Assembly (NCBI GenBank): GCA_002633275.1
Contig: NWBO01000053.1
Location: 1 to 52,000 of the forward strand
Length of the DNA: 52,000 nucleotides
From: Bacteroidales bacterium Phil12
Lineage (GTDB): Bacteria > Bacteroidota > Bacteroidia > Bacteroidales > P3
Direction of reading: 5' to 3'
Shown here piece after piece: positions 10,713 through 51,999 of this stretch. Positions within the stretch are counted from its first letter, which is position 1, and each line of letters opens with the position of its first letter. The notes beneath the pieces are model-generated. The model was not told the DNA's origin. It made no database searches and saw only the letters and a list, made by a program, of their open reading frames with translations. Made by a program: the position numbers and the translations under genes.

Positions 10713-13700
10713 TTAACGAGTTCTGACAATTACTTTCAATGATTTCTCTTCCGTGCCGTCATTAGCCACAACTACGTATGCACCTTGCGTCAATGTGGTG
10801 TTGATTGTAGAAGTGTTTGCCGAAAGCGATTTAACACAATGGCCAAGCATATCGAACACTTTTACATCAAGACGCTCGCGTGTGGTATTAACCGTAAGCT
10901 CCTTGCCTGCCGCAACGATGCTTATCGATTGCTCTTGCTCTATCTCAGGGTTTATATCCTCACGCTTGTTGGCTGCAACGATATAGAAACGACCGGAAGT
11001 GTTGCCGCTGACCTTAACGCTCATACCCTCTTCCAAAGGACGTTTGTCGCCTGTAACCTTATCCAACAAAAAGTAACTATCATATAAATGTATGTTGTCA
11101 AACGTAAGTTCTATCTCATTGTCGTTTTTGTCATTCATACCCGTAAGACCTATTTCAACGCCATCTATTGATGAAGTGGAGTTAATCATAACGGCGTTAC
11201 CGCCTGCAACGGAATATACCATAGGAGCATCGTCCATTTCTTCGTCAATCAAAAGCATCACATCTTCGTTATCCGAATAGTCTTTGGAAGCATCTTGCGA
11301 CAAAGTAATCAAAGCCTTAGACACAACCTCATTATTTGATAAAGCTGTTATACGCAAGCCGTCTTTTTCAAAGCCCGCTTGATTTATGCTGCGTGCTTTA
11401 AGTATAGGCTTATCTCCATTAGGAACATTAACCATCATATCTTTTTTGAACTGAATGCCATTAAGCGTTGCCGTCGAAGTTTTGGCCTCAACGAAAAATC
11501 CCTGCATAGGTGCAACGATATAAGGCTCTTGCATCGTACCTGTAACATCGCCGCCCTCTCCCATAACAAAGGCTTCTTTGGCAGAGCCGTCAGAAGCGAT
11601 TATCCAACATTTCGGATTAAGTTTATCGCTATTGGCTGTTAAAAACTCTTTCAAATCCAAATCGGTCATAAACGGATTACCCACCATAAAGAATTGGCTC
11701 GGTGAATCGCTGCGACCACTGGCAGAAGCGGTAAATCCGTTGGCATTACTTTTATCAAAAGCAAGTTTATAGGCTGAGTTACGAGCAATCTGCGTTTCGT
11801 CGCCGTGAATTCCTCCGTCTTGCGTGTAATATTCGTAACTTGCATCATCTTTCGGCAAACGCATAAGCACCTTATCGCCCTCATTGAAACTCGTTACGCC
11901 CGATACTTCGGCTTTAATGGAAAATCCCTGGCCTGCATCGTATTTCTCATTAACATCATTGAAAACATTACTCCATTGAGTAACGATTGCTACGTTCTTT
12001 GTTGAATGATCGACTTCGACAACCTTAGCATTTGCTTTGTTCCAAGAACGCTGATATACGGCAGGAGCAAAACGATTGTTTTTGTTTTTATCGGTCGAGA
12101 AAGTTATTGGCTGGAAACGTTCAGTTTCCTGGCGTGCATTCGCTGTCGGCATATACATATCGCCCGCAACGACATCTTTCAACGGTGAAGACAAAACATA
12201 CCAACGATTAGGGTCAAGTTCAGCTTCTACCCACGCTTTATCGTAGGTAAGATATTGCTGGTTGTAGATTCGTGCCGACGGCATAAAGTCTATCTCACTG
12301 CAAGTGTGCATATACCAAGGACGACAGTTGTAACCATAACTTCCGTTACTTATCAAGGTCATATCATATTGGACATCGTAAGTAATTGCTCCGTTTTCAA
12401 GGTCAAGAATGTTTTCAGGATTGCCTGCTATATTATCAGGGTCCTTAGGGTCGCCATACCAGTAAAACGTTTTTTGTACATTCTGACCTTTATAGGAATC
12501 CTTTATTTCAATCTGCTGCTGCGTTCCGCTTGGTTGGTAAAGATATGGATAACCGCTCGCAGGCTCTGTCGAAGGAAGCACAACCTTGGTAAAGTCTAAC
12601 GGTGCATAGGCGAACTTTACTTTATTAACGCCGTCTGTAATATAATCGGAATTTGCGTCTGCCTCTGCATAAAGTTCCTCAGAAGACATTCTTCGCCAGT
12701 TACGGTCGTTGTTCCAGTTAGGTTTGCTTGTTGCACCCGTCCAAATAACGTATTGAGGTACTACCTTGATAGTAAATACTCGCCTACCCTCACACATCAC
12801 TTCGTCATCGACAGAACCGCCGCTCTGATTTTCTTTATAAGCCACTGACATACGATAATAATAACCCTCCTTAAACTTAAATGCGTTATTGAATACCATA
12901 CGGAGAATATTATTATTTTCGCCTTTCTTGGCAACCATTTCTTTCAACAATCCCACCGCCAACAAACCTTCGGTTAAGTATTCTTGTTCATGCAAGTCTT
13001 TATATTGCGGGTCATTGGTTTCAACCAAGTAAATATTAGGGTCGCTGTTATCTTCCACTAATTCGGTGGAAGTTTCTTTCGCCGTGGTAACGGTACGGAT
13101 AGACACGTTAAGCATCTTGTCGTGAGTTTCAAGATTGTCTTTGATTGCACTTACCTCTTTGAGTTGAGCAAGACCTACACGCATAGGTACATCGTCCAAA
13201 TATGACGGATATGTTATCTGACCTATACCATGTTGCAACAATGGTGCCTGACGTCGAACAGGGATTGAAATCTCTGTCGGTTCTCCACACACGATGTAAT
13301 TGTCCTTCTCTGTATAAGTAGGTATTGCCACAACCTTTGCCGAACTCTCATTTCCTTCATTGAACTTCACAGGAGGGAATACATAAGAAGACTGATACAA
13401 CAACAATTTAGGTGCTATTGGGTCGCTGCCCTCGACTTGTTGAGGATTGCTCATCTCGATAATATAGTTTTTCATCTCCTGCGTAAAATCATTTTTCGGT
13501 ACTACCGTCTCGTCTTCAATAGACGGAGTATGCGGATAATTGAGACGAAATTGCAAAAGTGCCGTTCTTAAATCCAAATCCGCTTTATGTTCTGCATCAA
13601 ATTCAGCAATCGAGCCGTTATACCAATCCAAATAAGCATTCTTTTCAACAGTTACAACTTCATCGGTTTGCTCGTCTTTGTGTTTACCAATAACGTCCAA

Positions 13701-16700
13701 CTGGATAACAGGCATCTGGTTCTCGCAAACAAAGAACTCCTCGACATTAGAGACAGCCACACCGTCAATCCTTACCTGTCCGTAACGTTTTATGGAAAAT
13801 GTACTGATAGGAGAACAATCACTTCGTATTTCAAACTTATTCCACGCAACTATAGTATCATTCATATCCAAGTTATCACCGTCCGCCTCTTCGGCAAACA
13901 ATGCCTGAATATATTCTCTACCAGGCAAGATTTTATCGCCTGTTCCAGTGCTGATGACAAATGAAAGATATTCCTTATTGTCTGTGTCTTTTTCAAACAT
14001 CACCACTTTGTTGATTGTGGTCTCATTCTCTTCGTAAGGCACATTTTGAACGCCAAAAGTGTTGAAAGTCATCTTTCCGAAAGAAGTTATCTTATCGCCT
14101 CCACCGTAATTATATCTTACAACGGCAGAGTCAAAGGCTACGCGATAGGCAGTTTCGACTTGACCGCTTTCGCCTTGATGAATGGCATATATGGAATCAT
14201 ATACGGTATAAAATCTTTCTTTATCAAGGAAAGTGTAATATACATTGATATCCTCGCCCTCTTGTTCGTTTGTAGGAATAGCATCGCCCACCGATTGCAA
14301 GATAGTCTGATAAGGCGAAGAAAGTTTTATCGGCGGCAATTCGGAGTTACACAACGGCTTTGTTTGACGTGCCGTTACCTCTGGACGGACAACATAAACA
14401 CGTATATCGTCTATGGCGTAGTCTGCACCTTGTGAATTTTTGGCATTGTTGTCCAACTCCAACTCGTAGTGGTCGATGTCATCTTCCGTAAGACCCAAAG
14501 TAGCAAAATCGGGAATAAACGAATAAGAAATCGCCTGCCAGTCTCCACGCTTCTCTATATAGCCGGTGGTGAATGTGTGCAACAACTCTCGTATTCCATC
14601 CTTTTTAACCGCAATAAAGTTAAAAGCCAGGTTGGCTACTTCTGTAGCATTCGAAAGTTCCGCAAACCAAGCCGTAACATGTAAAGTCGCTCCTGTGCAA
14701 AGGTCATCGATTTTTATACGTGCCGTAACGCCGGGGTCGGCTGAGGCATTGACAAAATAATAGAATCCGGTCTGCGCTCCGCCTGTTTCAAACCAACGGC
14801 GGTCGTAAAGATAATTAGTCGGTTTGCCGTTTGGACTAAAAGCATCCCAATATCCTGTATTTATACTATTGGTAACAATCTGGTATAGACCGTAGTCTCC
14901 GTTATCCGTATAATTAAACCCATACTGTGACTCACCCCACTTGACAGGCCATTTTAATTCCCATCCATCACCATATTTGAACAAATAATTTTGTCTTTTA
15001 CTATCCGACAAGCCAAACAGATAACTGTATTCATCAAAATTAACTTTCGCCTTCGGTTTTCCAACCATTGACTCAAAATGCTCGGCTGTCATTGTAGGAT
15101 ACTTGCTTTTCATAACAGTTTCATCACCGACAAAAGCAATCCATTCGTTGGCAAATGTAATATGGTATTCCTGCACTATCACCTCATGACCGGTGCCGTC
15201 AGGCGTTGTGATTTTTTCATCGTTATAGTCCTTACCGATAAGGCGAACTATATATGTGCCAGGTTTGGCGTTAGCAGCATCGCAGGCAAGCATACGAGAA
15301 TACTTTCCTCCACCGCCACACAGGTAGTATGTAGTGCCATTGACAACTCGGCTTCCGTAACCTTGAAAGTCTTCAACTAAGTTAAAACCAGGATTTGGTA
15401 TTGGATTTTCGTTTTTATCAAAAACCTCAATATCACACGAACAAATACGACGATAGTCATCATCGCTGATTTTATAATAGTATTTGGAACGAATTACATC
15501 AGAACCGACTCCTCCCGACTCGTATTTTGGAATAGGCGATTCAAGACGTATCTGAAAATCTTTTCCGGCACGTGCCGTTACAGTGCGAAAATGCTTTTTG
15601 ATATATTCAAGGTTATTTTCCTTTGTAGAAGTCATTTCATCTGCCTGTTTCTTTCCGTCCTTGATACGGAACAAATGGCGATAAACAATCAGTGGCTCCT
15701 TTATTATCTTATTGTCTTTATCTACTTGATTCGCATCATTAAAACGCATACTGACATCTGCCGCCACCACATATTCTTCGTTGAAAGATTCAAGTTTGTC
15801 TTCCTGCGTATATGTTGCACGAGGATAAAAGAATGTGGCTATCGTACCATATCTGCGATAATTATTATTATAATCTGAGAAATTCTTCGACGGCTCAATC
15901 CACATACCATTAACAAAACCGGCATCTTTGGTGCGACCTGCAAATTGGGGATTTATCAAAAAGTCAAGCAACGGATAGTCTTCATCGTTTGTCAAATAGC
16001 CTCCGTTTTTATAATCATACCAATGGATAAAGTTCTCCCTATAATTAGGTATTCCTTCCCAACCATAATAAGGATATAGTGCGATAACATCACCGGGAAC
16101 GGCATAAAGTTCATGTTCAATAACGTGGGTTGGCTGACGCTTGCCGTTTTTCACATCCGAGTCATTTTCTGGGGTGATATACGAATAGTCGGGCATCTGT
16201 ATGTTGTGTTCATTCAAAAAGTCGTTATCCAATGTCCATTTGCCATCAACCCAACCATTCCAATCGGTATAGTTATCAGGAATTTTATCAATTGAATAAA
16301 AGTATTTAGTGGATTTTCGGTTATTAGCGTCAAGTACGCTTTGGGTATTCTCAAATGTATAATCTTCGTAATCTTTTACATAATCTGTTGTCAGACGAAA
16401 GCGGTCGATTTGAGTATCCGTATAATTGTCTTGTGAAGACAATCTGATAATATTAAACTCCGACATCGTAAGAAGTCGCAATTTTTTATCGCCAATCGTT
16501 TTAATCGTACGGCTGTTGTTGGTACGCAGTGTAAAGCGGATATATCTGAAAGTCTTGTTCGTGGTTATACGGCGAGAATATTCCTCTGTTTGATATCCAC
16601 GCATCACAAAATTGACATGTGTATGTGCGTAATACTGGTTAAACGGTTCCCAATTAGACCCGTTGTCAGATACATCGATATGAAAGGCGGTAGGAGCTCT

Positions 16701-17108
16701 TCTTAGTTTAACATCAACTTCCTTGCCCCCTTCTTTACATTTGGCGCTGCTGTTATGACGGCGGGTATAGATAATCAAATCATCATATACTTCTGCTCCG
16801 TTTTCTGCTGTCCTTTTCAAACTGAAATTTTCTCCAAGATCGACTGTAATACGTATGCTGTCGGTAATTTCATCGGACGAACTCCAATAAGTTCCAACAT
16901 TTTTATCTATCAAACATTGATAGTCAACAGATTGATTGGGAGATCCTCCTTTTGAGTCGTTTATTGTGATTTGACTTTTATCTTTTATAAGGATTTTACG
17001 TGTCGCTGTCTCCGTTGTCTGTCCAAAAGCAGTTTGTATTGATGCAAGCACCACAAACAACATTACCGTTACCAAATTAGGCATTATATGTATGTTTCTT
17101 ACTTTCAT
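10713..17108 (-). CDS. Giant secreted surface protein with T9SS-like C-terminal domain; candidate fimbrial tip adhesin
   Basis: This 2131-residue protein has a signal peptide ending near TAFGQ and no lipobox. Residues ~55-230 resemble a discoidin/F5-8C lectin-like domain (DKNVGTYWSSSD, ITVDLGENF, FHIDVSDNGSNWEPFN, FRYIRFTLR). Residues ~760-910 look like a second jelly-roll ligand-binding domain ending in DYAIDDIRVYVV. Near residue 1500 is an IWTGATSKPNWNNDRNW motif seen in Bacteroidota surface proteins. The last ~75 residues match a type A T9SS sorting domain: VKVFDMLGHCVKSL, TLTQGAYVVV, and a terminal KSLKVIVRTR. As the last gene of a fimbrial operon, 12 bases after an accessory fimbrillin, it parallels Mfa5 of Porphyromonas gingivalis, a T9SS-exported tip protein. 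It lacks an obvious von Willebrand A domain. Function is inferred. Confidence 0.75.
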   Translation of the reverse strand: MKVRNIHIMPNLVTVMLFVVLASIQTAFGQTTETATRKILIKDKSQITINDSKGGSPNQSVDYQCLIDKNVGTYWSSSDEITDSIRITVDLGENFSLKRTAENGAEVYDDLIIYTRRHNSSAKCKEGGKEVDVKLRRAPTAFHIDVSDNGSNWEPFNQYYAHTHVNFVMRGYQTEEYSRRITTNKTFRYIRFTLRTNNSRTIKTIGDKKLRLLTMSEFNIIRLSSQDNYTDTQIDRFRLTTDYVKDYEDYTFENTQSVLDANNRKSTKYFYSIDKIPDNYTDWNGWVDGKWTLDNDFLNEHNIQMPDYSYITPENDSDVKNGKRQPTHVIEHELYAVPGDVIALYPYYGWEGIPNYRENFIHWYDYKNGGYLTNDEDYPLLDFLINPQFAGRTKDAGFVNGMWIEPSKNFSDYNNNYRRYGTIATFFYPRATYTQEDKLESFNEEYVVAADVSMRFNDANQVDKDNKIIKEPLIVYRHLFRIKDGKKQADEMTSTKENNLEYIKKHFRTVTARAGKDFQIRLESPIPKYESGGVGSDVIRSKYYYKISDDDYRRICSCDIEVFDKNENPIPNPGFNLVEDFQGYGSRVVNGTTYYLCGGGGKYSRMLACDAANAKPGTYIVRLIGKDYNDEKITTPDGTGHEVIVQEYHITFANEWIAFVGDETVMKSKYPTMTAEHFESMVGKPKAKVNFDEYSYLFGLSDSKRQNYLFKYGDGWELKWPVKWGESQYGFNYTDNGDYGLYQIVTNSINTGYWDAFSPNGKPTNYLYDRRWFETGGAQTGFYYFVNASADPGVTARIKIDDLCTGATLHVTAWFAELSNATEVANLAFNFIAVKKDGIRELLHTFTTGYIEKRGDWQAISYSFIPDFATLGLTEDDIDHYELELDNNAKNSQGADYAIDDIRVYVVRPEVTARQTKPLCNSELPPIKLSSPYQTILQSVGDAIPTNEQEGEDINVYYTFLDKERFYTVYDSIYAIHQGESGQVETAYRVAFDSAVVRYNYGGGDKITSFGKMTFNTFGVQNVPYEENETTINKVVMFEKDTDNKEYLSFVISTGTGDKILPGREYIQALFAEEADGDNLDMNDTIVAWNKFEIRSDCSPISTFSIKRYGQVRIDGVAVSNVEEFFVCENQMPVIQLDVIGKHKDEQTDEVVTVEKNAYLDWYNGSIAEFDAEHKADLDLRTALLQFRLNYPHTPSIEDETVVPKNDFTQEMKNYIIEMSNPQQVEGSDPIAPKLLLYQSSYVFPPVKFNEGNESSAKVVAIPTYTEKDNYIVCGEPTEISIPVRRQAPLLQHGIGQITYPSYLDDVPMRVGLAQLKEVSAIKDNLETHDKMLNVSIRTVTTAKETSTELVEDNSDPNIYLVETNDPQYKDLHEQEYLTEGLLAVGLLKEMVAKKGENNNILRMVFNNAFKFKEGYYYRMSVAYKENQSGGSVDDEVMCEGRRVFTIKVVPQYVIWTGATSKPNWNNDRNWRRMSSEELYAEADANSDYITDGVNKVKFAYAPLDFTKVVLPSTEPASGYPYLYQPSGTQQQIEIKDSYKGQNVQKTFYWYGDPKDPDNIAGNPENILDLENGAITYDVQYDMTLISNGSYGYNCRPWYMHTCSEIDFMPSARIYNQQYLTYDKAWVEAELDPNRWYVLSSPLKDVVAGDMYMPTANARQETERFQPITFSTDKNKNNRFAPAVYQRSWNKANAKVVEVDHSTKNVAIVTQWSNVFNDVNEKYDAGQGFSIKAEVSGVTSFNEGDKVLMRLPKDDASYEYYTQDGGIHGDETQIARNSAYKLAFDKSNANGFTASASGRSDSPSQFFMVGNPFMTDLDLKEFLTANSDKLNPKCWIIASDGSAKEAFVMGEGGDVTGTMQEPYIVAPMQGFFVEAKTSTATLNGIQFKKDMMVNVPNGDKPILKARSINQAGFEKDGLRITALSNNEVVSKALITLSQDASKDYSDNEDVMLLIDEEMDDAPMVYSVAGGNAVMINSTSSIDGVEIGLTGMNDKNDNEIELTFDNIHLYDSYFLLDKVTGDKRPLEEGMSVKVSGNTSGRFYIVAANKREDINPEIEQEQSISIVAAGKELTVNTTRERLDVKVFDMLGHCVKSLSANTSTINTTLTQGAYVVVANDGTEEKSLKVIVRTR

Positions 17109-17120
17109 CTGACTTTGTTT

Positions 17121-18392
17121 TTAATTGTTTTCACGAATTATATAAAACTTTCGTGTAATTGTATATTCCAATTCGCCGTTTTTAACTTTTATCGCAAGAG
17201 TTACAACGGCTGTTCCTGTTACTCCGTCCTTGATTTCGCCGACAATCTCCGCTGTCTTGGTGTCGTATGTCGGTTGTGTTTTAAGAATAGATTTATCATC
17301 TTCGGTTGTAACGGTTATCTGCAAATCCTTGATAGCAACAACATCTCCATTGGAGCGAGTTACCGTAGGATTGATAACGAATTTACCACCCGAACCGAAC
17401 TTAGCGAAAAACTCATCATCTTGCTTTTCTGTAATCACTGCCGGATAACCACCGATAGGAGGATAAAACTGTACGCTAAGTTCCACAAGCCAATCGGTGA
17501 TAAGCACAGGAATTGTGATAAAATCATTTCTATTGATATATGATAACTGATATGCAAGGGCTTCAACCGTATGTGTTGTGCCGTCGCCATATTTCAGTTC
17601 AAAAGTCAATGGATAATGTTTCGTAGGATGATTTGCTGCCGTTGATTCAAACAAATAAAATGTTGCATCCTTTCCGACAGAGTTGTTTATCGTCAGGTCG
17701 GTAAAAGTCTTTTCAAGTTTTGTGCAAACCGTTCCATTAGGAAGTATAGGGGCTACGCCTTGCACTCCATTCTCTCCTATCGAAGCGTAGTTAGGCAAAA
17801 GATTGACAGCAGGCGTTAAAGCAGGAGTCATAGATATTTTGCTTATGGTAATATCTTGATTCATATCGGTGGAAAACTTAAAACATAACTTTGCCCACAA
17901 ACGTACGACTTCTATGCTGAATCCGTTACCTGCTGCCGTTATATCTATATCCAATGTGCCTGTCATAGGTATTTGCTCGCCGATATTTCCTACTTTTGTC
18001 CAAGTGGCAGTAGATATATTCGGCATGGCCGAACCCTCTGCAATGGCACTTCCCAGCAAGGTTTCTATCTCCGATTGGGTAATATTGGCAAAGGCATAGG
18101 CTTTGTATTTGCCTTGCGGCAAAGACAATTGGAATTCCTCACGCTCTACGGCATCGGTATTGCCACTGCCTTGCGCACGGGTGAGAATTTTTTTCACTAT
18201 GCCGTCCTCATCGACAAAGGCTATCCACCAATCATTGATAAGTTCGTCGGACGCTTCGCCTGCCTTGGTAGAAGCCGAGGCTATCGAAAAAGTCGTGGAA
18301 ACCTCCTTTTTCGTTATTTCGGGATTTTCCGCACAACTGCCGAAAAGCAGCAGCGAAATAATCAATAATATGTTCGTATAATTGGTTTTCAT
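17121..18392 (-). CDS. Fimbrillin-family accessory lipoprotein (Mfa3/Mfa4/FimC-E type position)
   Basis: This 423-residue protein has a signal peptide and a clear lipobox, LLLFGSC. The residues after the Cys (AENPEITKK) lead into a beta-rich sequence. Fimbrillin-like elements include SLPQGKYKAYAFANIT, VVRLWAKLCFKF and INRNDFITIPVLITDW. The C-terminal ~110 residues look like an extra Ig-like domain (FVINPTVTRSNGDVVAI...GTAVVTLAIKVKNG). In Mfa/Fim systems such subunits sit near the tip and join tip protein to shaft. It is separated by only nine bases from the preceding fimbrillin gene and 12 from the giant gene. The family is clear only at the level of fold and context. Confidence 0.7.
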   Translation of the reverse strand: MKTNYTNILLIISLLLFGSCAENPEITKKEVSTTFSIASASTKAGEASDELINDWWIAFVDEDGIVKKILTRAQGSGNTDAVEREEFQLSLPQGKYKAYAFANITQSEIETLLGSAIAEGSAMPNISTATWTKVGNIGEQIPMTGTLDIDITAAGNGFSIEVVRLWAKLCFKFSTDMNQDITISKISMTPALTPAVNLLPNYASIGENGVQGVAPILPNGTVCTKLEKTFTDLTINNSVGKDATFYLFESTAANHPTKHYPLTFELKYGDGTTHTVEALAYQLSYINRNDFITIPVLITDWLVELSVQFYPPIGGYPAVITEKQDDEFFAKFGSGGKFVINPTVTRSNGDVVAIKDLQITVTTEDDKSILKTQPTYDTKTAEIVGEIKDGVTGTAVVTLAIKVKNGELEYTITRKFYIIRENN

Positions 18393-18401
18393 AACTCTCT
18401 T

Positions 18402-19547
18402 TTACAAAATTATTTGGTCATGATTAATAACATTCCAAGGTCTTACGAATATTTCTGTCGTAATGCCATTGCTTTTGCATGTTACATCAATAACTACATG
18501 TGTATTGCGGAAAAGCGATTTAAGGTTCGGTAACTCGCACTCGAAAGGAGTTGCAACGCCGTCAATCGTAACGGTTAATGTGTAATGCTGTACATTTTGG
18601 TCATCGGGATTGCTTTTGCTCTCAGGCAGATAAAACACAGGAGTAACGTCAGGCGTGCCGCAGGTAATTCCGTCAGTCGATGCAGTAACATTAAACGGAG
18701 TATTGTAAGTATAGACCTTATTAACAGCAGACTGCGTAGGCAAAGCATAATCAGTAAGCCAACCCGCAGCGTCGGTTTGAGCATAAGAGTCATCTACCGA
18801 AGAAGCATCGGAAACGGCTCTTAACCAATCAACCCAATTAGAGTATGTTGCGGATTGAGGATAACTGCCTACATGTGCCATAAGGAAATTTTTATCCGCA
18901 TATTCTTTTATGCTGAAATTTTCGACCGTAACAGGGTCGGGACGCAGGTTTTTGAAATTGACCGTAAATTTCGTTGCAACACGCACAACATAAAAAGTCT
19001 CTTTGACCGTGCCGCTCTTTCCAATCTCAACTTCCTTTGGCTCGCAAGACATAGCGATATTTTTTCCGTCGGAATAATCAGGGGTGTAATATATCTTGTT
19101 TATATTCTCCTTAAAGCCATTCGCACCTTTGATATAAGTGTCAAAGAATTTTGTTAAAGACATATTACCTGCCACGCCCTCAACCTCTCCAACGCTCTCT
19201 TCATTGGCAAAGACATATACTGTTTTTTTCTCACTTGCCGTTACAGGAAGAACAACATAAGGCACATACTCCTGCGCAGTGCCTAAGGCATAATATCTGT
19301 TATGCTCCACAGTTCCGTTTTCGTGTAAAACAATAATACGAACACTGTGCATTTTCTCGTTATCAAGCAAATCTTTCTCGCCGACTTTTGCCAAAGTCTT
19401 ATCAAGCGTTGCAATTTTGATATACAATTTAGCGTCTTTGCCACCAGTCTGCAAAGCATCGTCCTCATTGCCGCACGACACCATTAGAAAAGATAGTGCA
19501 AATGCCACCAAACAGACTGCAATGCTATGTACGGTTTTTATTTTCAT
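18402..19547 (-). CDS. Fimbrillin-family accessory lipoprotein
   Basis: This 381-residue protein has a lipobox-like site FLMVSC at the end of its signal peptide. The first domain contains the fimbrillin pattern SVRIIVLHENGTVEHNRYY and VVLPVTASEKKTVYVFANE; the second contains VVRVATKFTVNFKNL. It ends with VRPWNVINHDQIIL. This resembles the closing strands of the anchor and of the major fimbrillin in this operon, consistent with a donor strand used in head-to-tail assembly. It lies 24 bases after the anchor gene. It probably forms part of the fimbrial shaft or its tip adaptor. Confidence 0.75.
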   Translation of the reverse strand: MKIKTVHSIAVCLVAFALSFLMVSCGNEDDALQTGGKDAKLYIKIATLDKTLAKVGEKDLLDNEKMHSVRIIVLHENGTVEHNRYYALGTAQEYVPYVVLPVTASEKKTVYVFANEESVGEVEGVAGNMSLTKFFDTYIKGANGFKENINKIYYTPDYSDGKNIAMSCEPKEVEIGKSGTVKETFYVVRVATKFTVNFKNLRPDPVTVENFSIKEYADKNFLMAHVGSYPQSATYSNWVDWLRAVSDASSVDDSYAQTDAAGWLTDYALPTQSAVNKVYTYNTPFNVTASTDGITCGTPDVTPVFYLPESKSNPDDQNVQHYTLTVTIDGVATPFECELPNLKSLFRNTHVVIDVTCKSNGITTEIFVRPWNVINHDQIIL

Positions 19548-19571: not shown

Positions 19572-20669
19572 TTATTTATCAAGATTTACATCACTCGGTA
19601 CAACACGCCAAGAGTGAATCAAAATATAACTGCTTACCCATTTATTATTCTCGTCCAAGAAGAATGTCATCTCATACTCGTCCTCACGATCCAAGAAATC
19701 CTGCGGAGTCATCGAATGACCGTATGCCATTTCGTAATAATCCTTGGCAAGCAAAGCATAATCGATAACAGGAACACCTGCCACAACGCTCTCGCCGTCC
19801 TTGGTGGTTATGGTTAGCAACATATCCCTGCTATGCCCCAGCGTCATTCTTGCAACAGTCAAATCAGCAATGGCAGTAGCACAATTTACCACCTCTCCGT
19901 CAGATACTATACCCGCCGTTCCCGATTGAGTGTTCCAAGCGTGGTAAGTAATCTTCTCGTCTTTGATAAGTTCATTATCATAACCCATACGTCCGTTATC
20001 GTCTTCTATGCGGAAAACAAAATCATTGACATCTACATCTTGTGCGGACAAGTGCTGCAAAATGATACGAACGTGATTGACGTCCTTGGTTAAAAACATA
20101 GTGTAGTTGTAACAATCTCCGTCATCATTCTTAGGCAGGCTGACATCAAGCATACCGTGGAATAAAAAATCAAGCATTTCCGTACTGTGAGCCTCTCCGC
20201 TTTCGCCGTCCTTGGTTGAAGCGATTACGTTTTGGCTGCGTTTCAAAATACATTGAAGTTCTTCGATACGCGAAACTCCGACTGTCATTTCAGGCACGGA
20301 AAAAGATTTCTTTCCGCCATCGTTGTCCAACCCGCACCAGGCTATAAGCTTATAATCTCCCGCAGGCAGGTCAAGTGTCATCGAATAGTCTTTGGTCGTA
20401 AGGGTTGCTCCTTTTTCCGTTTTCTGCCAAACCAAAAGCCCATTGGTATCGAACGCATACAAATTAACGGACTTAACTTCGTTGGCAAAGGCATCTGCCC
20501 ATTTCAAGTTCTTTTCATAACAGAATTTAAGACGGTAGGTTACAGAACAATCACCCTCGTAATCATAGACAAAGTCATTACATGACACAAAAGCAACAAG
20601 CGGTAAAACTGCCAATAACACACGTAATGCCGTTCTTTTCATATAAGTCTTAATTTTCATACCGTTCAT
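19572..20669 (-). CDS. FimB/Mfa2-family fimbrial anchor lipoprotein
   Basis: This 365-residue protein matches the FimB/Mfa2 pattern: signal peptide with a Cys in FVSCNDFVYDYEGDC, then YRLKFCYEKNLKWADAFANEV, VNLYAFDTNGLLVW and LPAGDYKLIAWCGLD. Members anchor the fimbria to the outer membrane and limit its length. A lipidated Cys is likely although the residue at -3 is Phe, which is not the classic lipobox. It ends ILIHSWRVVPSDVNLDK. Three in-frame Met codons (20669, 20660, 20642) make the exact start uncertain. It is 228 bases downstream of the major fimbrillin, separated by a hairpin that may uncouple expression. Confidence 0.85.
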   Translation of the reverse strand: MNGMKIKTYMKRTALRVLLAVLPLVAFVSCNDFVYDYEGDCSVTYRLKFCYEKNLKWADAFANEVKSVNLYAFDTNGLLVWQKTEKGATLTTKDYSMTLDLPAGDYKLIAWCGLDNDGGKKSFSVPEMTVGVSRIEELQCILKRSQNVIASTKDGESGEAHSTEMLDFLFHGMLDVSLPKNDDGDCYNYTMFLTKDVNHVRIILQHLSAQDVDVNDFVFRIEDDNGRMGYDNELIKDEKITYHAWNTQSGTAGIVSDGEVVNCATAIADLTVARMTLGHSRDMLLTITTKDGESVVAGVPVIDYALLAKDYYEMAYGHSMTPQDFLDREDEYEMTFFLDENNKWVSSYILIHSWRVVPSDVNLDK

Positions 20670-20897: not shown

Positions 20898-22532
20898 TTA
20901 CCATTCCAAACTAATATCTTGTTTTACAAGACGCCAAGAAAGAATCTTGATTTCAGCAGCGATGAAAGTATCATCACCAGGTTTTTCAGGGTAGATTATT
21001 TCGTCCGGATTATATACAGGAGTTCCCAAACCGGTTAAGTTTGTGATGTTAGCAGCATAGATATGGTTACGAACAACACCGATATTGCCAGGAGCAGCTG
21101 TTCCTATATGTTGTATGTCAAAGTAATAGTAAGTTTGTCCTTCTTCCCAAACTTTTGCTCCGCCAAGATTGGATATAAGATTTACATTGACATTAGCAAC
21201 TGGTGTTGCATCTTCTGCATTAGAAGAATACCAGTTTTTAGAAACATCTACCTGTGCATATACTTTGTAACGACCAGGAGTTTGTTGATTTGCTTCTCCT
21301 ACCTCAGTAGCGGTTTTCAATATAATATCACTTGCTGCAATCTGGTCTTTACCAGTACCATCTGTTTTGTCTTTCCATAAACCGGAAGCAGCAGCAAATT
21401 TTGCTTTCAAACCGTCCAAGTCCATTCTTTCACCACCATACTCTGCAAATGTCAAAGCATCACCATTTTCATCAACCAACTGTGCAGCGATAATTATTTG
21501 TGTAGGGTGGGTTGGATTTGTTCCATTTTCATAACTATCCGAAGCATTCTCCTGCATATATGTGTAGTTTGCTCCTTTTGAGCTATTTTCATTGAAGCCT
21601 TTAATTGCTTGTGCAGCATCAAACTTACCCCAGTTGTAGTCAGTTAGAGCCAATATCGGGTTGCATGCCCAAAATGAACGATGGAAGTTATCGGTATTCC
21701 AAGTCCAACCTAATGACCAAGCCGGATTTATTTCTTTCATCAATCGAGATTTGCTTGTTGTTGCAGTAACATTCCAACCAAGGAATTTTACATAAACATC
21801 TTTACCATTATACTGTTCGTAACCACCGGCTTTTGCTTTTGCTTTATACAAAGTTTCTCCGTCAATAACCTTATACTCTGTAAGACCAACAGTCAAACGA
21901 GCCTTTGCCAATACTCTTTCTACATAGATAGTAACAGGATTTGCTTTTGCAGCTGTTTCTGTTGGATATAAATGTCCTATTACACTTATCTCTTCCATTT
22001 TCTTAGTGCCATCAGCATATACGGAACTGCTCATAATAAATTTATCAGTAGCACTGTAATCATTAACCAATGCGTTTAACCCATCAAGAGTATTAATTTC
22101 ACCAAGAGCAGGTGGATTAATAACCGCAACAATAGAAGCAGGTGCTTTGTCTCCTGCCTGAGTGCTGATTATAATCGTAGCATCAATAATTTTCTCAACG
22201 TTATTATCACCGGTGTTAGTGGTTTCACCGTCAGGAGTGTAATCGTAGTACGATTGCTCTGTACCATCTACTTTTTTGACATTTGTAGCATTTCCGTCAG
22301 CGTCAAAAAAGTAAAGCCTTACTTTTTCTACCGCATTCTCAGATGCTAAACCGTTTTCAAATTCTTCACCTGCTTTCATACCGGACAATCCACCGGTTGT
22401 GTTAATACTTACAGACAGATACTGAGGTTCGCCATATTCGCCTGGCTCTCCGGGTCTGTTTGCATTCTCGTTGTTACAGCCGACTAATGCCAAGCCAACC
22501 GCAACAGCCATCAATAAATTTTTTACTTTCAT
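20898..22532 (-). CDS. Major fimbrillin (Mfa1/FimA-like shaft subunit)
   Basis: This 544-residue protein has a signal peptide and a textbook lipobox, LALVGC at residues ~14-19. Its sequence follows the Mfa1/P_gingi_FimA pattern: VEKVRLYFFDADGNATNV, IIDATIIISTQAGDKAPASIVAVINPP, VYADGTKKMEEISVIGHLYP and IYVERVLAKARLTV, plus a C-terminal VRNHIYAANITNLTGLG and final strand IKILSWRLVKQDISLEW. In this family the lipoprotein form reaches the cell surface, is cut by an Arg-specific protease, and polymerises by strand exchange. It is the third gene of the operon, 36 bases after the OmpA/TPR gene. Its position before the hairpin and the anchor gene fits the major subunit role. Confidence 0.85.
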   Translation of the reverse strand: MKVKNLLMAVAVGLALVGCNNENANRPGEPGEYGEPQYLSVSINTTGGLSGMKAGEEFENGLASENAVEKVRLYFFDADGNATNVKKVDGTEQSYYDYTPDGETTNTGDNNVEKIIDATIIISTQAGDKAPASIVAVINPPALGEINTLDGLNALVNDYSATDKFIMSSSVYADGTKKMEEISVIGHLYPTETAAKANPVTIYVERVLAKARLTVGLTEYKVIDGETLYKAKAKAGGYEQYNGKDVYVKFLGWNVTATTSKSRLMKEINPAWSLGWTWNTDNFHRSFWACNPILALTDYNWGKFDAAQAIKGFNENSSKGANYTYMQENASDSYENGTNPTHPTQIIIAAQLVDENGDALTFAEYGGERMDLDGLKAKFAAASGLWKDKTDGTGKDQIAASDIILKTATEVGEANQQTPGRYKVYAQVDVSKNWYSSNAEDATPVANVNVNLISNLGGAKVWEEGQTYYYFDIQHIGTAAPGNIGVVRNHIYAANITNLTGLGTPVYNPDEIIYPEKPGDDTFIAAEIKILSWRLVKQDISLEW

Positions 22533-22568: not shown

Positions 22569-24002
22569 TTAATATTTTCCTCTTTCTTTCATTTCTTTCA
22601 ATGTGGCAGTTGCCTGCTCCAAACCCATTTGCTCAGCTTTCTCAAAATAAATTGCTGCGGTTTTGTAATCATTCTTTCTTATAGCAAGCGCTCCACGAGC
22701 ATATACAGCCTCGGCAGAATTACCGGCTCTGTCAAGATATTTTTGTGCTATCTCGTAATCGTCATTACGTATGGCTGCATTGGCAGCATTAAGGTTAGCA
22801 ACCTCATCTTTCGGGAACATACGTACAGCCGTCTCAAAAACTTCTGTGAATTCAGTCGTACCCGGCTCATATCCCTGAGCAACCAAGTAAAACTCATTCA
22901 AACTTAACTTCTGCGGTTCTTCTTCCATAATACGTTTGATTTCTTCTATATCATAGAACGAACGTATTGCATAATCGATACGATAATCGGTACGACGCAA
23001 ATACGGATAGCAATACTTCAATAAGAAACGATATTCTTCCGGGTAAGTACGTTTAAGTTTAGCCTCTTTTGCATCGGGTTCCATATCGCTGTCAATAATA
23101 TCAAGAATTTCTTCACGATGATTGATATTAGACTTTTCCACATAACGACGCAAGCCCTCCCAGTTCTCAGGCTCATATTCCGTAGAGATTATACCGTCCT
23201 TGAAACGGAACAATTGGTTTATGTGATTTTTGATAGCAGCCGTACGACCCTTAGCCAAATCGGTATTGTGCTTGTATGGGCTTTCGGGCGATGCGTAACC
23301 TTTTAACCAAACAGAAGTAATGGTGATGTCTTTATCGTTACGAACCGAGTCTATCGTTCCTGCAATCTTGTTTAACTCGGCAGTATTGTTGTGATATTCC
23401 GGATAAATCACCGTTTGATCCACCGGGAAATCCACGTATGCCGAACCCGCCAACGAACGTGCTTTTTCCATTTCCGCCTTTGGCTTAACAAACAGCAAGT
23501 TCGGGAAGAATGTCTCATGATGACGACCTAACTCACCATCGTACTCTGCCAGTTTATCGTGGCAACAACCCCAATCGCTGCGGTGGAATTTTAGCGTTGC
23601 TCCGTCCATCCAATCCTTGTATTCGGTAAGATTGCTGTAAGCAACACTATCCGGCTTATTTGATGCACGATAAGATTTTTCGCTCTTGCCCGTGATATTG
23701 CTAATACCTTTTCTTTCGTAATAATAATGTCTTCTACGTCCATATATGCCAACAGAAGGAAGATCAATAGAATCTTTTCCATTGACAAGACGTGGCGTTA
23801 GCAACACGGCACGATTGGAAGACACATTAAGGTCTTTCAAATTCATATCCATCGCCACATTGAGATATTTACCCTCACGTTCCATTTTGAATGTATCTAT
23901 GGAAACGTCGGGAATTATACGCTTCTTTTCTTGTGCGCCCACTTCCGATATGCAAATCATACCGGTAAGGGCAACAATCATAACATATATTGTCCTTTTC
24001 AT
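22569..24002 (-). CDS. DUF3868-type outer-membrane/periplasmic protein with OmpA-like and TPR regions
   Basis: This 477-residue protein has a signal peptide ending near VGAQ. Residues ~30-120 form the DUF3868-type beta domain (NVAMDMNLKDLNVSSNRAVLLTPRLV). Residues ~185-290 resemble an OmpA-like domain: ITSVWLKGYASPESPYKHNTDLAKGRTAAI corresponds to the OmpA x-G-Y-A-s...N..L...RA region. Residues ~385-470 hold TPR-like repeats (DDYEIAQKYLDRAG, NDYKTAAIYFEKAEQMG). Genes of this type are regularly found with a DUF3575 gene at the head of Bacteroidales fimbrial operons. An assembly or cell-wall anchoring role is inferred. It is 13 bases from the DUF3575 gene. A paralogue with the same three-part layout lies at 49834-51666. 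Confidence 0.75.
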   Translation of the reverse strand: MKRTIYVMIVALTGMICISEVGAQEKKRIIPDVSIDTFKMEREGKYLNVAMDMNLKDLNVSSNRAVLLTPRLVNGKDSIDLPSVGIYGRRRHYYYERKGISNITGKSEKSYRASNKPDSVAYSNLTEYKDWMDGATLKFHRSDWGCCHDKLAEYDGELGRHHETFFPNLLFVKPKAEMEKARSLAGSAYVDFPVDQTVIYPEYHNNTAELNKIAGTIDSVRNDKDITITSVWLKGYASPESPYKHNTDLAKGRTAAIKNHINQLFRFKDGIISTEYEPENWEGLRRYVEKSNINHREEILDIIDSDMEPDAKEAKLKRTYPEEYRFLLKYCYPYLRRTDYRIDYAIRSFYDIEEIKRIMEEEPQKLSLNEFYLVAQGYEPGTTEFTEVFETAVRMFPKDEVANLNAANAAIRNDDYEIAQKYLDRAGNSAEAVYARGALAIRKNDYKTAAIYFEKAEQMGLEQATATLKEMKERGKY

Positions 24003-24015
24003 ATCCGTTGCTTTT

Positions 24016-24633
24016 TTAGAAAATATAAACGAGATTTAATGCTGCCTTGGTAGGACCAAAATAATGATGAGGCACATCGGTTTCTATTTTTTTGCCACAA
24101 CCCGTACAACGAAATCTGTCATAACGAGTATAGGAATAACCTATGCCTATCTCTCCTTCAAGATTCCAATGGCGAGAGAGAACCCACGCATAACCGTAGG
24201 CAACGCCCAAACCGACAAACCAACCTTGATAACGAGTATCTTTAAGTTTGCGAGCGTCCGTTCCCAAGAAATTGACTTTACCGTCAAAGCCTCCCATATT
24301 GAACATTCCGCCATGTAAGTGCGCACCAAAGAAATGACCGCCATAACGGTCGCACAACCAATAGCGAACCTCTGGCTGAATGGTAGCGTGTTTCCAACGT
24401 CTGTTATGAGAAAGGGTCCAGCCGTTCAACTGCCCTGTAACATCTACCGTCCATTTGGGAGCCAAACCTATCTCTATACCAAGATTAGGACTCAAAAACG
24501 CATCAGAAAGTAGGTTGGTTTTTACCCCCCCCCATTGCCCTCTGACAACCTGAGAGGTTCCTGCAATGACAATTACCAAAAATAAAAATATGCGATTCAC
24601 CGCGACTTGACATTCATTTTGTTGTCTTTTCAT
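24016..24633 (-). CDS. DUF3575-type outer-membrane beta-barrel protein, first gene of the fimbrial operon
   Basis: This 205-residue protein has an uncleaved-looking N-terminus (MKRQQNECQ), a hydrophobic signal (IFLFLVIVIAGTS) and a beta-rich, aromatic body typical of a small outer-membrane barrel (VKTNLLSDAFLSPNLGIEIGL, GWFVGLGVAYGYAW, GYSYTRYDRF). It ends in Phe, as barrel proteins often do. TNLL near the mature N-terminus is typical of DUF3575. I prefer the second Met (24633) over one 12 codons earlier. Just after the signal, codons Trp34-Gly35-Gly36-Val37 contain nine consecutive G bases (24525-24533 on the complement). A one-base slip would put the gene out of frame. The exact role in fimbrial biogenesis is not known to me. 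Confidence 0.75.
   Translation of the reverse strand: MKRQQNECQVAVNRIFLFLVIVIAGTSQVVRGQWGGVKTNLLSDAFLSPNLGIEIGLAPKWTVDVTGQLNGWTLSHNRRWKHATIQPEVRYWLCDRYGGHFFGAHLHGGMFNMGGFDGKVNFLGTDARKLKDTRYQGWFVGLGVAYGYAWVLSRHWNLEGEIGIGYSYTRYDRFRCTGCGKKIETDVPHHYFGPTKAALNLVYIF
24525..24533 (-). repeat. G9 homopolymer tract inside the DUF3575 gene
   Basis: There are nine C on the plus strand, nine G in the coding strand, covering codons 34-37. This is a candidate slipped-strand contingency tract that could switch the first gene of the fimbrial operon on or off. Confidence 0.8.
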
Positions 24634-24688
24634 ATTATTTATATTATCTTTATTGCAAATAAACTTCAATAAATATGAATTGAGAGTG

Positions 24689-24720
24689 CAAAATTACAAC
24701 ATTTATCTGGAAACCAACAA
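24689..24720 (-). promoter_or_regulatory. Promoter of the fimbrial operon
   Basis: The minus strand has TTGTTGG, then 18 or 21 bases (depending on which TTG is used), then TAATTTTG (24689-24696). This is a good Bacteroidota promoter, about 55 bases upstream of the DUF3575 start. It is the only such box close to the head of the operon. Confidence 0.7.
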
Positions 24721-24742
24721 ATAAAATAGGTAAAAATGCTCT

Positions 24743-24753
24743 CCCCCCCCCCC
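24743..24753 (-). repeat. G11 homopolymer tract just upstream of the fimbrial promoter
   Basis: Eleven consecutive C on the plus strand (G on the transcribed orientation) lie 22-25 bases upstream of the -33 TTG of the fimbrial promoter, in otherwise AT-rich DNA. Length changes would alter spacing between any upstream activator site and the promoter. The AT-rich DNA from about 24760 to 25020 contains no gene I can support. Confidence 0.8.
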
Positions 24754-25020
24754 GAAAAAAATTTTTTCGCTCTTCGTCAGAGCATTAAATTCCAGCATTT
24801 TACACAAAAATAATTAAATGCCACATTTTTGTTCCAAACAGGCTCTTTTTACTCAAAATTTACTGCTTTTGTATCTCAAAAACAACTTTTTCACACTATT
24901 TTCTCTCAAAAAATTTCACTTTTTTATAAAATCGACAAAAAAGTCAAAAAATTTGTTTAAGTTATAGCAAAAAAAATTTCGATTGTCGCAACAATTTTGC
25001 ATAAATCGAAATCTGATAAT

Positions 25021-25125
25021 GAAAAATCCAACGAAAATACATCTCAAAACAAGAAAATAATCATAAACACCGATAAAATAGTTATAAACACTATTGAAAT
25101 AAATATAAATACCGACAAAACGAAT
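25021..25125. repeat. 21-bp-period repeat array, about five units
   Basis: Units start at 25021, 25042, 25063, 25084 and 25105. The clearest three begin ATAAACACCGATAAAATA, ATAAACACTATTGAAAT and ATAAATACCGACAAAAC. The spacing is exactly 21 bases although the units are diverged. The array lies just downstream of the broken Bro-N gene. Confidence 0.7.
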
Positions 25126-25127
25126 AA

Positions 25128-25621
25128 TTAATCTTCTTGCTCGTAGTAATAAGAATAATCAATGCCTTTCATAAATGTTTCACGGTCATTAATCTTGTCG
25201 GTTAAAGAAGATTGCAACAAATGATTGATATGTGTGCTATTGACGACGCTTTCTTTCTACTCTGTCCGTCTATGGTGTTATCGCTATATGTAAACCAATC
25301 CAAAAAATCTTTTGCTCTATTATTCTGGTAATTCTTTGCCAATATGGATACTTCTTCGCTATTTAAGGCATCTGAAAAACGCACCTTGCCATCAGGAGCC
25401 TTAAATTTGAAGCCGTGAGTGGTACTCACGAGTTCAATACCTTCTTGTTTTAACTTACGCTTTAACCACCTCCAATAGTTAGCGGCTTTGACGTAGTCGG
25501 GTTCATCATTTATGGCTCTGACAATATCTGTTGCGGAAAACCACCATTTTGAATTGTCATCGTCCCAAATAGCACGCACCTGCCTATCGTTAAAAAAACG
25601 TATGGAAACCTTATCGCTCAT
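25128..25621 (-). pseudogene. Bro-N domain gene, probably broken (deletion/frameshift)
   Basis: The open frame from 25621 encodes 139 residues. The first ~117 resemble a Bro-N / phage antirepressor-like N-terminal domain: IRFFNDRQVRAIWDDDNSKWWFSATDIV, YWRWLKRKLKQEGIEL, and DFLDWFTYSDNTIDGQSRKKA. The tail then turns into unlikely sequence (SSIAHISIICCNLL) and stops at 25202. A one-base shift near the Lys-Lys-Ala codons gives a reading that continues as LTDKINDRETFMKGIDYSYY and stops at 25128. That tail looks like the end of a Fic-type protein to my recollection. The simplest reading is a Bro-N/Fic-like accessory gene that lost its middle. It could instead be an intact short protein ending at 25202. 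Confidence 0.55.
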
Positions 25622-25756
25622 AACTGTATTACGTTTTCAAATATTGAACAAAATTCATTATATAATTATAACGGCTCTATACCTTATTATATTGGCTCAT
25701 TGATTAAAAATTTCGGCTTTTATGGTTATTTATATTGCCTTGCCGTTCTCTTATAT

Positions 25757-25804
25757 TAAAAATATCGGTTAAACAAAACGTTTTATTGCCCTGCTTAACC
25801 GATA
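25757..25804 (-). terminator. Terminator of the fucosidase gene
   Basis: A perfect 10-bp stem (TATCGGTTAA at 25763-25772 with its complement at 25795-25804) has a 22-base loop and is followed on the minus strand by TTTTTAATAT. It starts 30 bases past the fucosidase stop. Confidence 0.75.
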
Positions 25805-25833
25805 AGTCTTGCATATATTATTGTACCTTAGTT

Positions 25834-27285
25834 TTACAATTCTACAACGATTGCGTTACGTTCCTTGTTTTTCTTGATGAAATTAGTGCTTAGGTTTAAG
25901 GTATAAGCACCGTTTTTGTATCTTAACGAGGCTTTTTGTTTAGTGCCAAGAATTTTTTTATTACCTTTTTTTATTCCGTCAAAGGCAGGAATATCGTAAG
26001 ACTTACGCAATGCCGTTGAGTCATCAATCAAAATCAAAGCATATATCTGTCCGTCCTTGCCTTGTGTGTAACAGATGCCGTCTTGCTTATAAGGGGCTAT
26101 CGGGCGAGTGCTGTATATGGCTTTGCCATTGACATTCAACCACGCTCCTATGCTATCCATACGACTGACAGCGGCCTGCGGAAGATTACCTAACTCATCA
26201 GGACCGACATTCAACAAAAAGTTTCCGCCCTTACAAACAACATCTATCAGCAAATGGATAAGTTTGTTGGTGGATTTATAGTTGTCGTTTGCAACATAAG
26301 ACCAACTGTCGCCCATAGTCATACAAGTCTCCCACGGATAATCCAAAGGAGCGTCGGGTATGGCTTGCTCAGGTGTGCGATAATTCTCGTATTTGCCGCC
26401 TATCGTTCTATCGACGATAATCATCGCAGGATTTTTCTCTCTTGCAATCTTAGCGATTTTCGGCATATTGATGTCTTGAATACGCTTGTTCTTACCTATC
26501 CATTCTTCGTGGTCAGGGTCAAGCACAACACTCCACAAAGGACAAATCCAACCTGCATCAAGCCAAAGAATGTCAATCTTACCATAGTTATGGGTAATCT
26601 CCTTGATTTGATTGGTCGTAAAATCACAGAAACGCTGCCACATATCCGGGTGTTTTTCTATGCTATAATTAACGTTTCTATCGGGTGTTGCCCACAATGG
26701 AGACCAATAATCTTCGTTATGCCAATCGGCTTTGGAAAAATACAAACCGATTTTGAAGTCTTTGTTGCGGAAAGATTTTACCACTTCGTCCGTAACGTCT
26801 CTGCCGTCCTGACCGCCAAACGGAAAATTCGGGTTGGTTATCTTGTAATCCGTCTCTTTTGTGTCGTACATACAAAAACCATCGTGATGTTTGGTTGTAA
26901 AGACGACATATTTCATTCCGCCTCTTTGTGCAGCCTCAGCCCATTTGTCGGGATTGAATTGTTTAGGATTGAACTCCGTTGCCAAATTCCAATAATCTTG
27001 TTTGTATTTTTCATAAGGCTCCCCCTTACGGTCTATCCATTCTTCGTTGCATATACTCCACGATTCAACAACTTGCTTTTGGGCGTACATACCCCAATGC
27101 ATAAAAAAGCCAAACTTCAAATCCTGCCACTCCGATACGGCTTGCAAAATACGTGGATCGGTCTCGGGTTTTTGCTCATCGTCAGAACGGGGAACTTGAA
27201 ACTCATAGATTTTATTCTCTTGCGCATAGGTGTTGGCGAATAAACCCATAGCCAACATAAATATTATAACCAATCTTTTTTTCAT
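25834..27285 (-). CDS. Secreted alpha-L-fucosidase, GH29
   Basis: This 483-residue glycoside hydrolase family 29 enzyme probably releases terminal L-fucose from host or plant glycans in the periplasm. The signal peptide ends near TYAQ. Catalytic-domain marks are KFGFFMHWGMYA, the HH pair in VVFTTKHHDGFCMYDT, and the nucleophile Asp in DILWLDAGW near residue 242. NFLLNVGPDELG closes the barrel, and a small beta domain follows. An earlier in-frame Met (27312) lies inside a 21-bp repeat array, so I start at the Met followed by KKRLVII. The general acid/base is not certain from sequence. No other fucose genes are adjacent. Confidence 0.93.
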   Translation of the reverse strand: MKKRLVIIFMLAMGLFANTYAQENKIYEFQVPRSDDEQKPETDPRILQAVSEWQDLKFGFFMHWGMYAQKQVVESWSICNEEWIDRKGEPYEKYKQDYWNLATEFNPKQFNPDKWAEAAQRGGMKYVVFTTKHHDGFCMYDTKETDYKITNPNFPFGGQDGRDVTDEVVKSFRNKDFKIGLYFSKADWHNEDYWSPLWATPDRNVNYSIEKHPDMWQRFCDFTTNQIKEITHNYGKIDILWLDAGWICPLWSVVLDPDHEEWIGKNKRIQDINMPKIAKIAREKNPAMIIVDRTIGGKYENYRTPEQAIPDAPLDYPWETCMTMGDSWSYVANDNYKSTNKLIHLLIDVVCKGGNFLLNVGPDELGNLPQAAVSRMDSIGAWLNVNGKAIYSTRPIAPYKQDGICYTQGKDGQIYALILIDDSTALRKSYDIPAFDGIKKGNKKILGTKQKASLRYKNGAYTLNLSTNFIKKNKERNAIVVEL

Positions 27286-42897: not shown

Positions 42898-42906
42898 GGG
42901 GGGGGG
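42898..42906 (+). repeat. G9 homopolymer tract upstream of dsbD
   Basis: Nine G lie in the 157-base gap between the envC-like gene and dsbD, 97 bases before the dsbD ATG. No promoter box is clear nearby. Confidence 0.85.
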
Positions 42907-51986: not shown

Positions 51987-51999
51987 CCCCCCCCCCCCC
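51987..51999 (+). repeat. C13 homopolymer tract at the window edge
   Basis: Thirteen C are followed by the last base T. The tract may continue a regulatory region of the next gene, which is outside the window. No other feature is visible between the repeat array and this tract. Confidence 0.85.

Follow-up and report, generated by a model that had tools for sequence, protein, structure and literature searches.

Two slippage-prone poly-G tracts in a type V fimbrial operon of Bacteroidales bacterium Phil12 as candidate graded and on/off controls of one pilus

The window analysed here, the first 52,000 nucleotides of contig NWBO01000053.1 of Bacteroidales bacterium Phil12, carries a type V fimbrial operon of about 14 kb on the minus strand (24633-10713), with a G11 tract beside its promoter and a G9 tract in its first gene. 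We think it rather probable that this operon is under two slippage controls, the promoter being tuned by the length of the first tract and the first gene being switched on and off by frameshifting at the second. The predicted frameshift layer is well supported, while the promoter layer is one that we infer. The lengths of both tracts differ in the closest relative, and the pilus is therefore probably switched by copying slips.

An earlier interpretation of the letters alone, referred to below as the sequence-only reading, had placed a G11 tract on the minus strand at 24743..24753, and this position proved exact. The distance to the -33 element, given there as 22-25 bases, was right to within about one base: 21 bp separate the 3' edge of the tract from TTTG (22 bp from TTG). 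A further 21 bp lie between TTTG and TAATTTTG. This core spacing excludes the tract, which sits directly upstream of the -33 element and outside the core promoter. The arrangement TTTG-N21-TAATTTTG fully matches the Bacteroidota promoter consensus of -33 (TTTG-type) and -7-type elements quoted in PMC7366714. The coding tract, which was absent from the sequence-only reading, follows directly after the hydrophobic stretch of a signal peptide (judged by eye). The features of the control region, with their state in the nearest relative, RUG093, are as follows.

24743..24753, minus strand: promoter-upstream tract, C11 on the plus strand and G11 on the coding strand; G16 at the equivalent place in RUG093
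24718..24721, minus strand: -33 element TTTG; unchanged in RUG093
24689..24696, minus strand: -7 element TAATTTTG; unchanged in RUG093
24754..24768, unstranded: A/T box adjoining the upstream side of the tract, perhaps UP-like; in RUG093 shorter, rearranged in part, still A/T-rich
24769..24783, unstranded: palindrome GCTCT-5-AGAGC upstream of the tract, possible activator site; arms kept in RUG093
24805..24838, minus strand: second promoter-like match, TTTG-N22-TATTTTTG, upstream of the tract (-7 at 24812-24805); -7 not kept in RUG093
24525..24533, minus strand: coding tract G9 where the signal peptide ends, in frame; G8 and broken frame in RUG093

The sequence-only reading had found a single promoter for the operon. 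Its core is indeed conserved, though the second match also fits the consensus, with a -7 element that is lost in the relative. Sigma-70-type promoters (3 matches against 3.9 expected from shuffles) were not used, and the one Rfam match at the locus, far below the gathering score, was rejected as a sign of structured RNA.

A search of 14 genomes of the genus with the DUF3575 protein encoded by the first gene gave matches in two, the window's own genome and that of the nearest relative, G005, which appears to be RUG093, a name in which RUG is short for rumen uncultured genome. The alignment of the two regions spans both tracts, and the core promoter is identical from the -33 to the -7 element. 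The promoter tract is G11 here and G16 in RUG093, and the coding tract G9 here and G8 there. Since G8 replaces G9, the frame of the first gene is broken in RUG093, and its homology splits in two at the coding tract. Comparison of tract length in related genomes had been proposed as a check, and in the two species compared the length is not fixed, each assembled length being one draw from a population. Between the same two genomes, 8 of 11 orthologous tract pairs (best matches, limited to sites with a tract of 8 or more in the relative too) differ in length, compared with 10 of 46 A/T runs of at least 6 in the same alignments, these control runs being shorter than the G tracts (Fisher p = 0.002). 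Two tract pairs on apparently duplicated contigs of another genome (G013) are equal in length, from which no conclusion was drawn.

Such tracts are not a matter of chance, and homopolymers far exceed expectation. The genome contains 41 G/C runs of at least 9 against about 1.9 expected from nearest-neighbour frequencies, and the window 4 against about 0.03; only 4 of the 45 genome runs of at least 8 are exactly 8 long. Runs of at least 9 number from 0 to 40 in the other 13 genomes of the genus, from 0 to 29 in 23 genomes of other genera of the family (two genomes of one genus stand at 24 and 29) and from 0 to 17 in 24 genomes of other families of the order. Judged from sequence, the two tracts appear to have the properties of slippage contingency loci, namely a homopolymer beyond chance, a place in a promoter or a reading frame and a length more variable than other sequence.

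Records of G tracts of at least 9, 209 in all, were compared across nine congeneric genomes. The genome count gives 221 tracts; the records lack a few from G002, G009 and G013, G005 has 27 records against 26 in that count, and one place, the window-edge tract, is entered twice, being also contained in L050. A full promoter was defined as TTG-N19..22-TANNTTTG. Two zones are seen. In the first, promoters lie 81-140 bp upstream of the 3' edge of the tract; all 58 are on the G strand and none is on the C strand, and these tracts would therefore be transcribed and read as G. The second zone has 18 promoters 40-59 bp downstream of the tract, of which the G strand carries 13 and the C strand 5, where the background at 100-299 bp would give 1.1 (P = 6e-17, computed with 1.0 expected). 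The 13 include the window's coding tract, which is spurious, the RUG093 ortholog and one paralog, and 15 of the 18 are left when these are removed. The strand bias differs between the zones (58:0 and 13:5, p = 0.0005). As the second zone occurs in both orientations and the first in one, the pattern fits a DNA spacer in the former and translation in the latter.

With the same three cases dropped, the 24 promoters within 100 bp include 15 whose tract edge is 18-35 bp from TTG (P = 7e-5, the range having been picked after seeing the data). The edge-to-TTG distances cluster at 7-11, 18-23, 30-35 and 48-52 bp, and the window tract, at 22 bp, falls in the main distance group; the distance for L050 was coded as 22 bp, an NN gap splitting its tract. 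A post hoc circular test scanning periods of 9.5-12 bp suggests a periodicity of 10-12 bp, with p = 0.0025 for the 18 distances of up to 40 bp and 0.043 for all 24. With regard to possible UP-like elements, the A/T fraction in the 40 bp upstream is 0.787 for 17 second-zone tracts and 0.702 for 208 records. At L188 (G007), one G9 separates a divergent pair of promoters, with their -7 elements 32 and 43 bp away from it. In a homologous operon of another Bacteroidales record, L076, a G8 at 2788-2795 lies 23 bp upstream of the -7 element, roughly where the -33 element would be expected.

The genes behind the promoter cases are partly surface-related. Non-fimbrial promoters with a tract within 100 bp number 21; for 14 of these a following ORF was found, some of the ORFs being short and doubtful. 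Nine of these ORFs were scanned against Pfam and gave fibronectin type III (L180, L053), Cleaved_Adhesin (L035), an outer-membrane beta-barrel (L050; L057 under the cut-off) and a CD225-type membrane protein (L260), while L155, L219 and L221 are secreted-looking and have no Pfam family. L053, L035 and L260 do not fall within 40-59 bp. Of 26 promoter cases, 6 have both tract types, namely the three fimbrial operons of this genome, the RUG093 ortholog, L219 and L221.

The two further fimbrial operons of this genome are on contigs C101 (L049) and C152 (L059), and their first genes match the DUF3575 protein; the C101 operon is supported by a Pfam scan. All three operons found here have a tract upstream of the promoter and another in the first gene. 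A similar N-terminal leader, in which a G tract precedes the signal peptide, is shared by the first genes of L049, L059 and L152, a fimbrial operon of the relative (G005:C20). As assembled, the window and C101 have an in-frame first gene and C152 an out-of-frame one, and neither of the two RUG093 first genes examined (C37 and C20) is in frame.

The proposed mechanism has two parts. Slippage in G11 would add or remove bases between the core promoter and the upstream A/T DNA or activator site, and the change in length would rotate the two around the helix, tuning promoter strength stepwise. A slip in G9 would change the reading frame where the signal peptide ends, turning the DUF3575 protein on or off. 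A high slippage rate within the population is presumed here, G11 length would have to act on transcription, and loss of the DUF3575 protein would presumably affect the pilus, perhaps by abolishing it or through polarity on the operon's remaining genes. The precedent is sabA of Helicobacter pylori, where, according to PMC4081817, the length of a T-tract upstream of the -35-type element tunes promoter strength. The zone orientation pattern and this precedent together lead us to read G11 as a strength tuner and G9 as an on/off switch. The locus shares with sabA, as presented there, a homopolymer upstream of a -35-type element, A/T-rich DNA beyond it and a surface adhesin. It differs in the G/C tract, the Bacteroidota promoter, the control of a whole fimbrial operon and the second, coding tract, and it is known from sequence alone.

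The sequence-only reading had proposed G11 as a transcriptional phase switch. This holds insofar as the tract is slippage-prone, recurs at this position in the genus and measures 11 and 16 in the two species next to an identical core. The clearest candidate for an on/off switch, however, is the coding G9, and graded, sabA-like output from G11 is likelier than strict on/off because the promoter tract is outside the core promoter. The parallel it drew with Bordetella fim genes is loose. In B. pertussis fim3, according to PMC10172299, the poly(C) tract sets the distance between the -10 and -35 elements and its length decides expression; a G/C homopolymer at a fimbrial promoter is common to both, but the tract here is not part of that distance.

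Several observations weigh against double control. The comparison of tract pairs with A/T runs depends on the choice of pairs and the shorter controls described above; one of the 11 pairs (8/9) differs by more than a pure G change, and for some pairs orthology is less sure because they are in repeated elements. The palindrome is 48 and 49 bp from TTG in the two species, almost unchanged, the longer G tract going with a shorter A/T box, and hence 11 and 16 need not mean different promoter states. A coding tract at the equivalent place was found in 0 of the 11 other operon homologs read (13 homologs, two left out), which makes this tract young. The RUG093 paralog G005:C20 has no tract of at least 8 upstream of its promoter, and the C101 promoter tract is 90 bp from the -7 element, outside the main distance groups. 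Taken over all 24 distances, the periodicity is weak. Outside the genus, 83 of the 94 tracts of five genomes were retrieved, and only three promoters stand at 40-59 bp, with edge distances of 20, 22 and 35; transcribed-leader tracts are nearly lacking there, and the promoter-tract class, weak as it is outside the genus, was set aside.

The first alternative is that only the coding G9 switches the operon and G11 is a slippage-prone passenger without transcriptional effect. The frame break in RUG093 is direct, whereas the promoter effect is one we infer, and the nearly constant spacing from palindrome to promoter points the same way. A passenger tract is nevertheless hard to reconcile with the strong concentration of tracts in the genus at the promoter distance seen for G11, or with three fimbrial operons of one genome carrying both tracts, and we regard this explanation as unlikely. 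Less probable still is transcription from the match TTTG-N22-TATTTTTG at 24805-24838, which would put the tract in an untranslated leader and let it act on the RNA. Transcribed-leader tracts are the commoner class in the genus, and the match itself is present, but its -7 element is lost in RUG093 while the downstream core promoter is identical. Furthermore, a search of 24400-25300 gave no terminator-like site, so that the window operon lacks the terminator of a pil1-type attenuator.

Sequencing or assembly artefacts are very improbable as the source of the tracts: the genomes are drafts and the window-edge tract (51987) adjoins an NN scaffold gap, yet tracts recur at the same places in a second genome record, show a sharp position and strand preference relative to promoters and terminators, and vary widely in number (between 0 and 41 per genome within the genus and between 0 and 17 in the 24 from other families). 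Least credible of all is promoter inversion with an incidental tract, the mode described for phase-variable loci of Bacteroides in PMC12632263, as the eight inverted-repeat pairs in 24000-26000 are imperfect and 12-20 nt long, none plausibly flanks the promoter, and the region has the same orientation in RUG093; here the sequence-only reading, which had favoured slippage over inversion, is supported by the lack of a long flanking inverted-repeat pair.

Double control of the operon can be set within a broader pattern of tracts in the genus. An intrinsic terminator is found 15-150 bases past the tract on the G strand in 54 of the 209 records and on the other side in 1 of 209 (p = 7e-17). Ten elements of the window's own genome (L031, L034, L036, L039, L044, L048, L051, L052, L060 and L062) consist of a promoter, a conserved short leader ORF that enters the G tract and then an intrinsic terminator, and the genes behind them are varied (HU-like, SEL1-type and FHA/phosphatase-like, by eye). 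At the assembled length, the leader ORF stops before the terminator stem in nine elements and 2 nt into the stem in L060; in 9 of the 10, another tract length modulo 3 lets it run into or through the stem. This class looks like a slippage-controlled attenuator. It resembles pil1 of Streptococcus gallolyticus (PMC3894217), a single locus with GCAGA repeats in a leader ORF ahead of an intrinsic terminator; unlike pil1, the tracts here are of G and occur at many loci, and the window operon has no such terminator.

Among 35 leader-plus-terminator elements with a readable start, exactly one frame enters the terminator in 21, none in 12 and two in 2; 19 further terminator elements without a readable leader start are not in the 35. 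Shuffled spacers give 40% with exactly one frame entering the terminator, so that 21 of 35 is suggestive only and the one-frame logic was not taken as a proven rule. A count of 12 of 13 came from a hand-picked set and was superseded by these figures. Taken together, we give about even credence to genome-wide poly-G phase variation in this genus in three layers: helix-phased tracts upstream of -33 elements, tracts in the N-terminal leader codons of exported proteins, and leader-ORF tracts before terminators acting as slippage-controlled attenuators. In the fimbrial operons the first two layers would act together, so that a single pilus would be under both graded and on/off control.

The assignment of the operon to type V (FimA/Mfa) pili follows from adjacent matches on the same strand to Fimbrillin_C (E 1.6e-13) and Mfa2 (E 1.1e-58), and Pfam matches to DUF3575, DUF3868, Fimbrillin_C and Mfa2 bear out the 14-kb fimbrial operon proposed by the sequence-only reading. 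Its genes, in order of transcription, are as follows.

24016..24633, minus strand: first gene, DUF3575 protein, ATG at 24633 (PF12099 E 2.7e-70 on the 217-aa ORF 24016-24669)
22569..24002, minus strand: DUF3868 protein (Pfam)
20898..22532, minus strand: Fimbrillin_C protein, probable stalk pilin (Pfam E 1.6e-13)
19572..20669, minus strand: Mfa2 family anchor (Pfam E 1.1e-58)
18402..19547, minus strand: FimA-like protein, weak (Pfam E 0.00087, under the curated cut-off)
17121..18392, minus strand: 423-aa protein, no Pfam family in the scan
10713..17108, minus strand: 2131-aa protein with weak F5/8 type C and Por_Secre_tail matches, both under the curated cut-offs; possible tip or secreted adhesin

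Upstream of the operon, an ORF with a Bro-N domain (25202-25621) diverges part-way in RUG093, its flanks being conserved. Elsewhere in the window, a C13 at 51987-51999 marks the edge, and just outside it are the NN scaffold gap, C6 and then a promoter for an outer-membrane beta-barrel gene. A G9 at 42898-42906 is located between an M23 peptidase gene and a DsbD-like gene; its G strand has no TANNTTTG between 150 bp ahead of the tract and 250 bp past it.

Accounts of phase variation in gut Bacteroidales are mostly of DNA inversion. PMC12632263, which also treats type V pili and phase-variable fimbriae, deals with phase-variable surface loci of Bacteroides, members of the same order, that vary by promoter inversion, in contrast to the homopolymer slippage proposed here. 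Also in the same order, PMC3090145 presents a Bacteroides fragilis polysaccharide gene with a frameshift by an extra C in a C4 run, suggested as a source of variation; that run is very short and concerns one coding gene, with no promoter tract. Among the matches listed in the literature on slippage or phase variation in Bacteroidales or the rumen, a set that covers few subscription papers, no poly-G promoter switch in Bacteroidales was found. Both the twofold control proposed for a single fimbrial operon and the apparent phasing of tracts to the helix lend themselves to direct testing. If the proposal is true, surveys of invertible DNA alone would miss a second layer of surface variation in these bacteria, and the lengths of the tracts could be counted in existing metagenomes.
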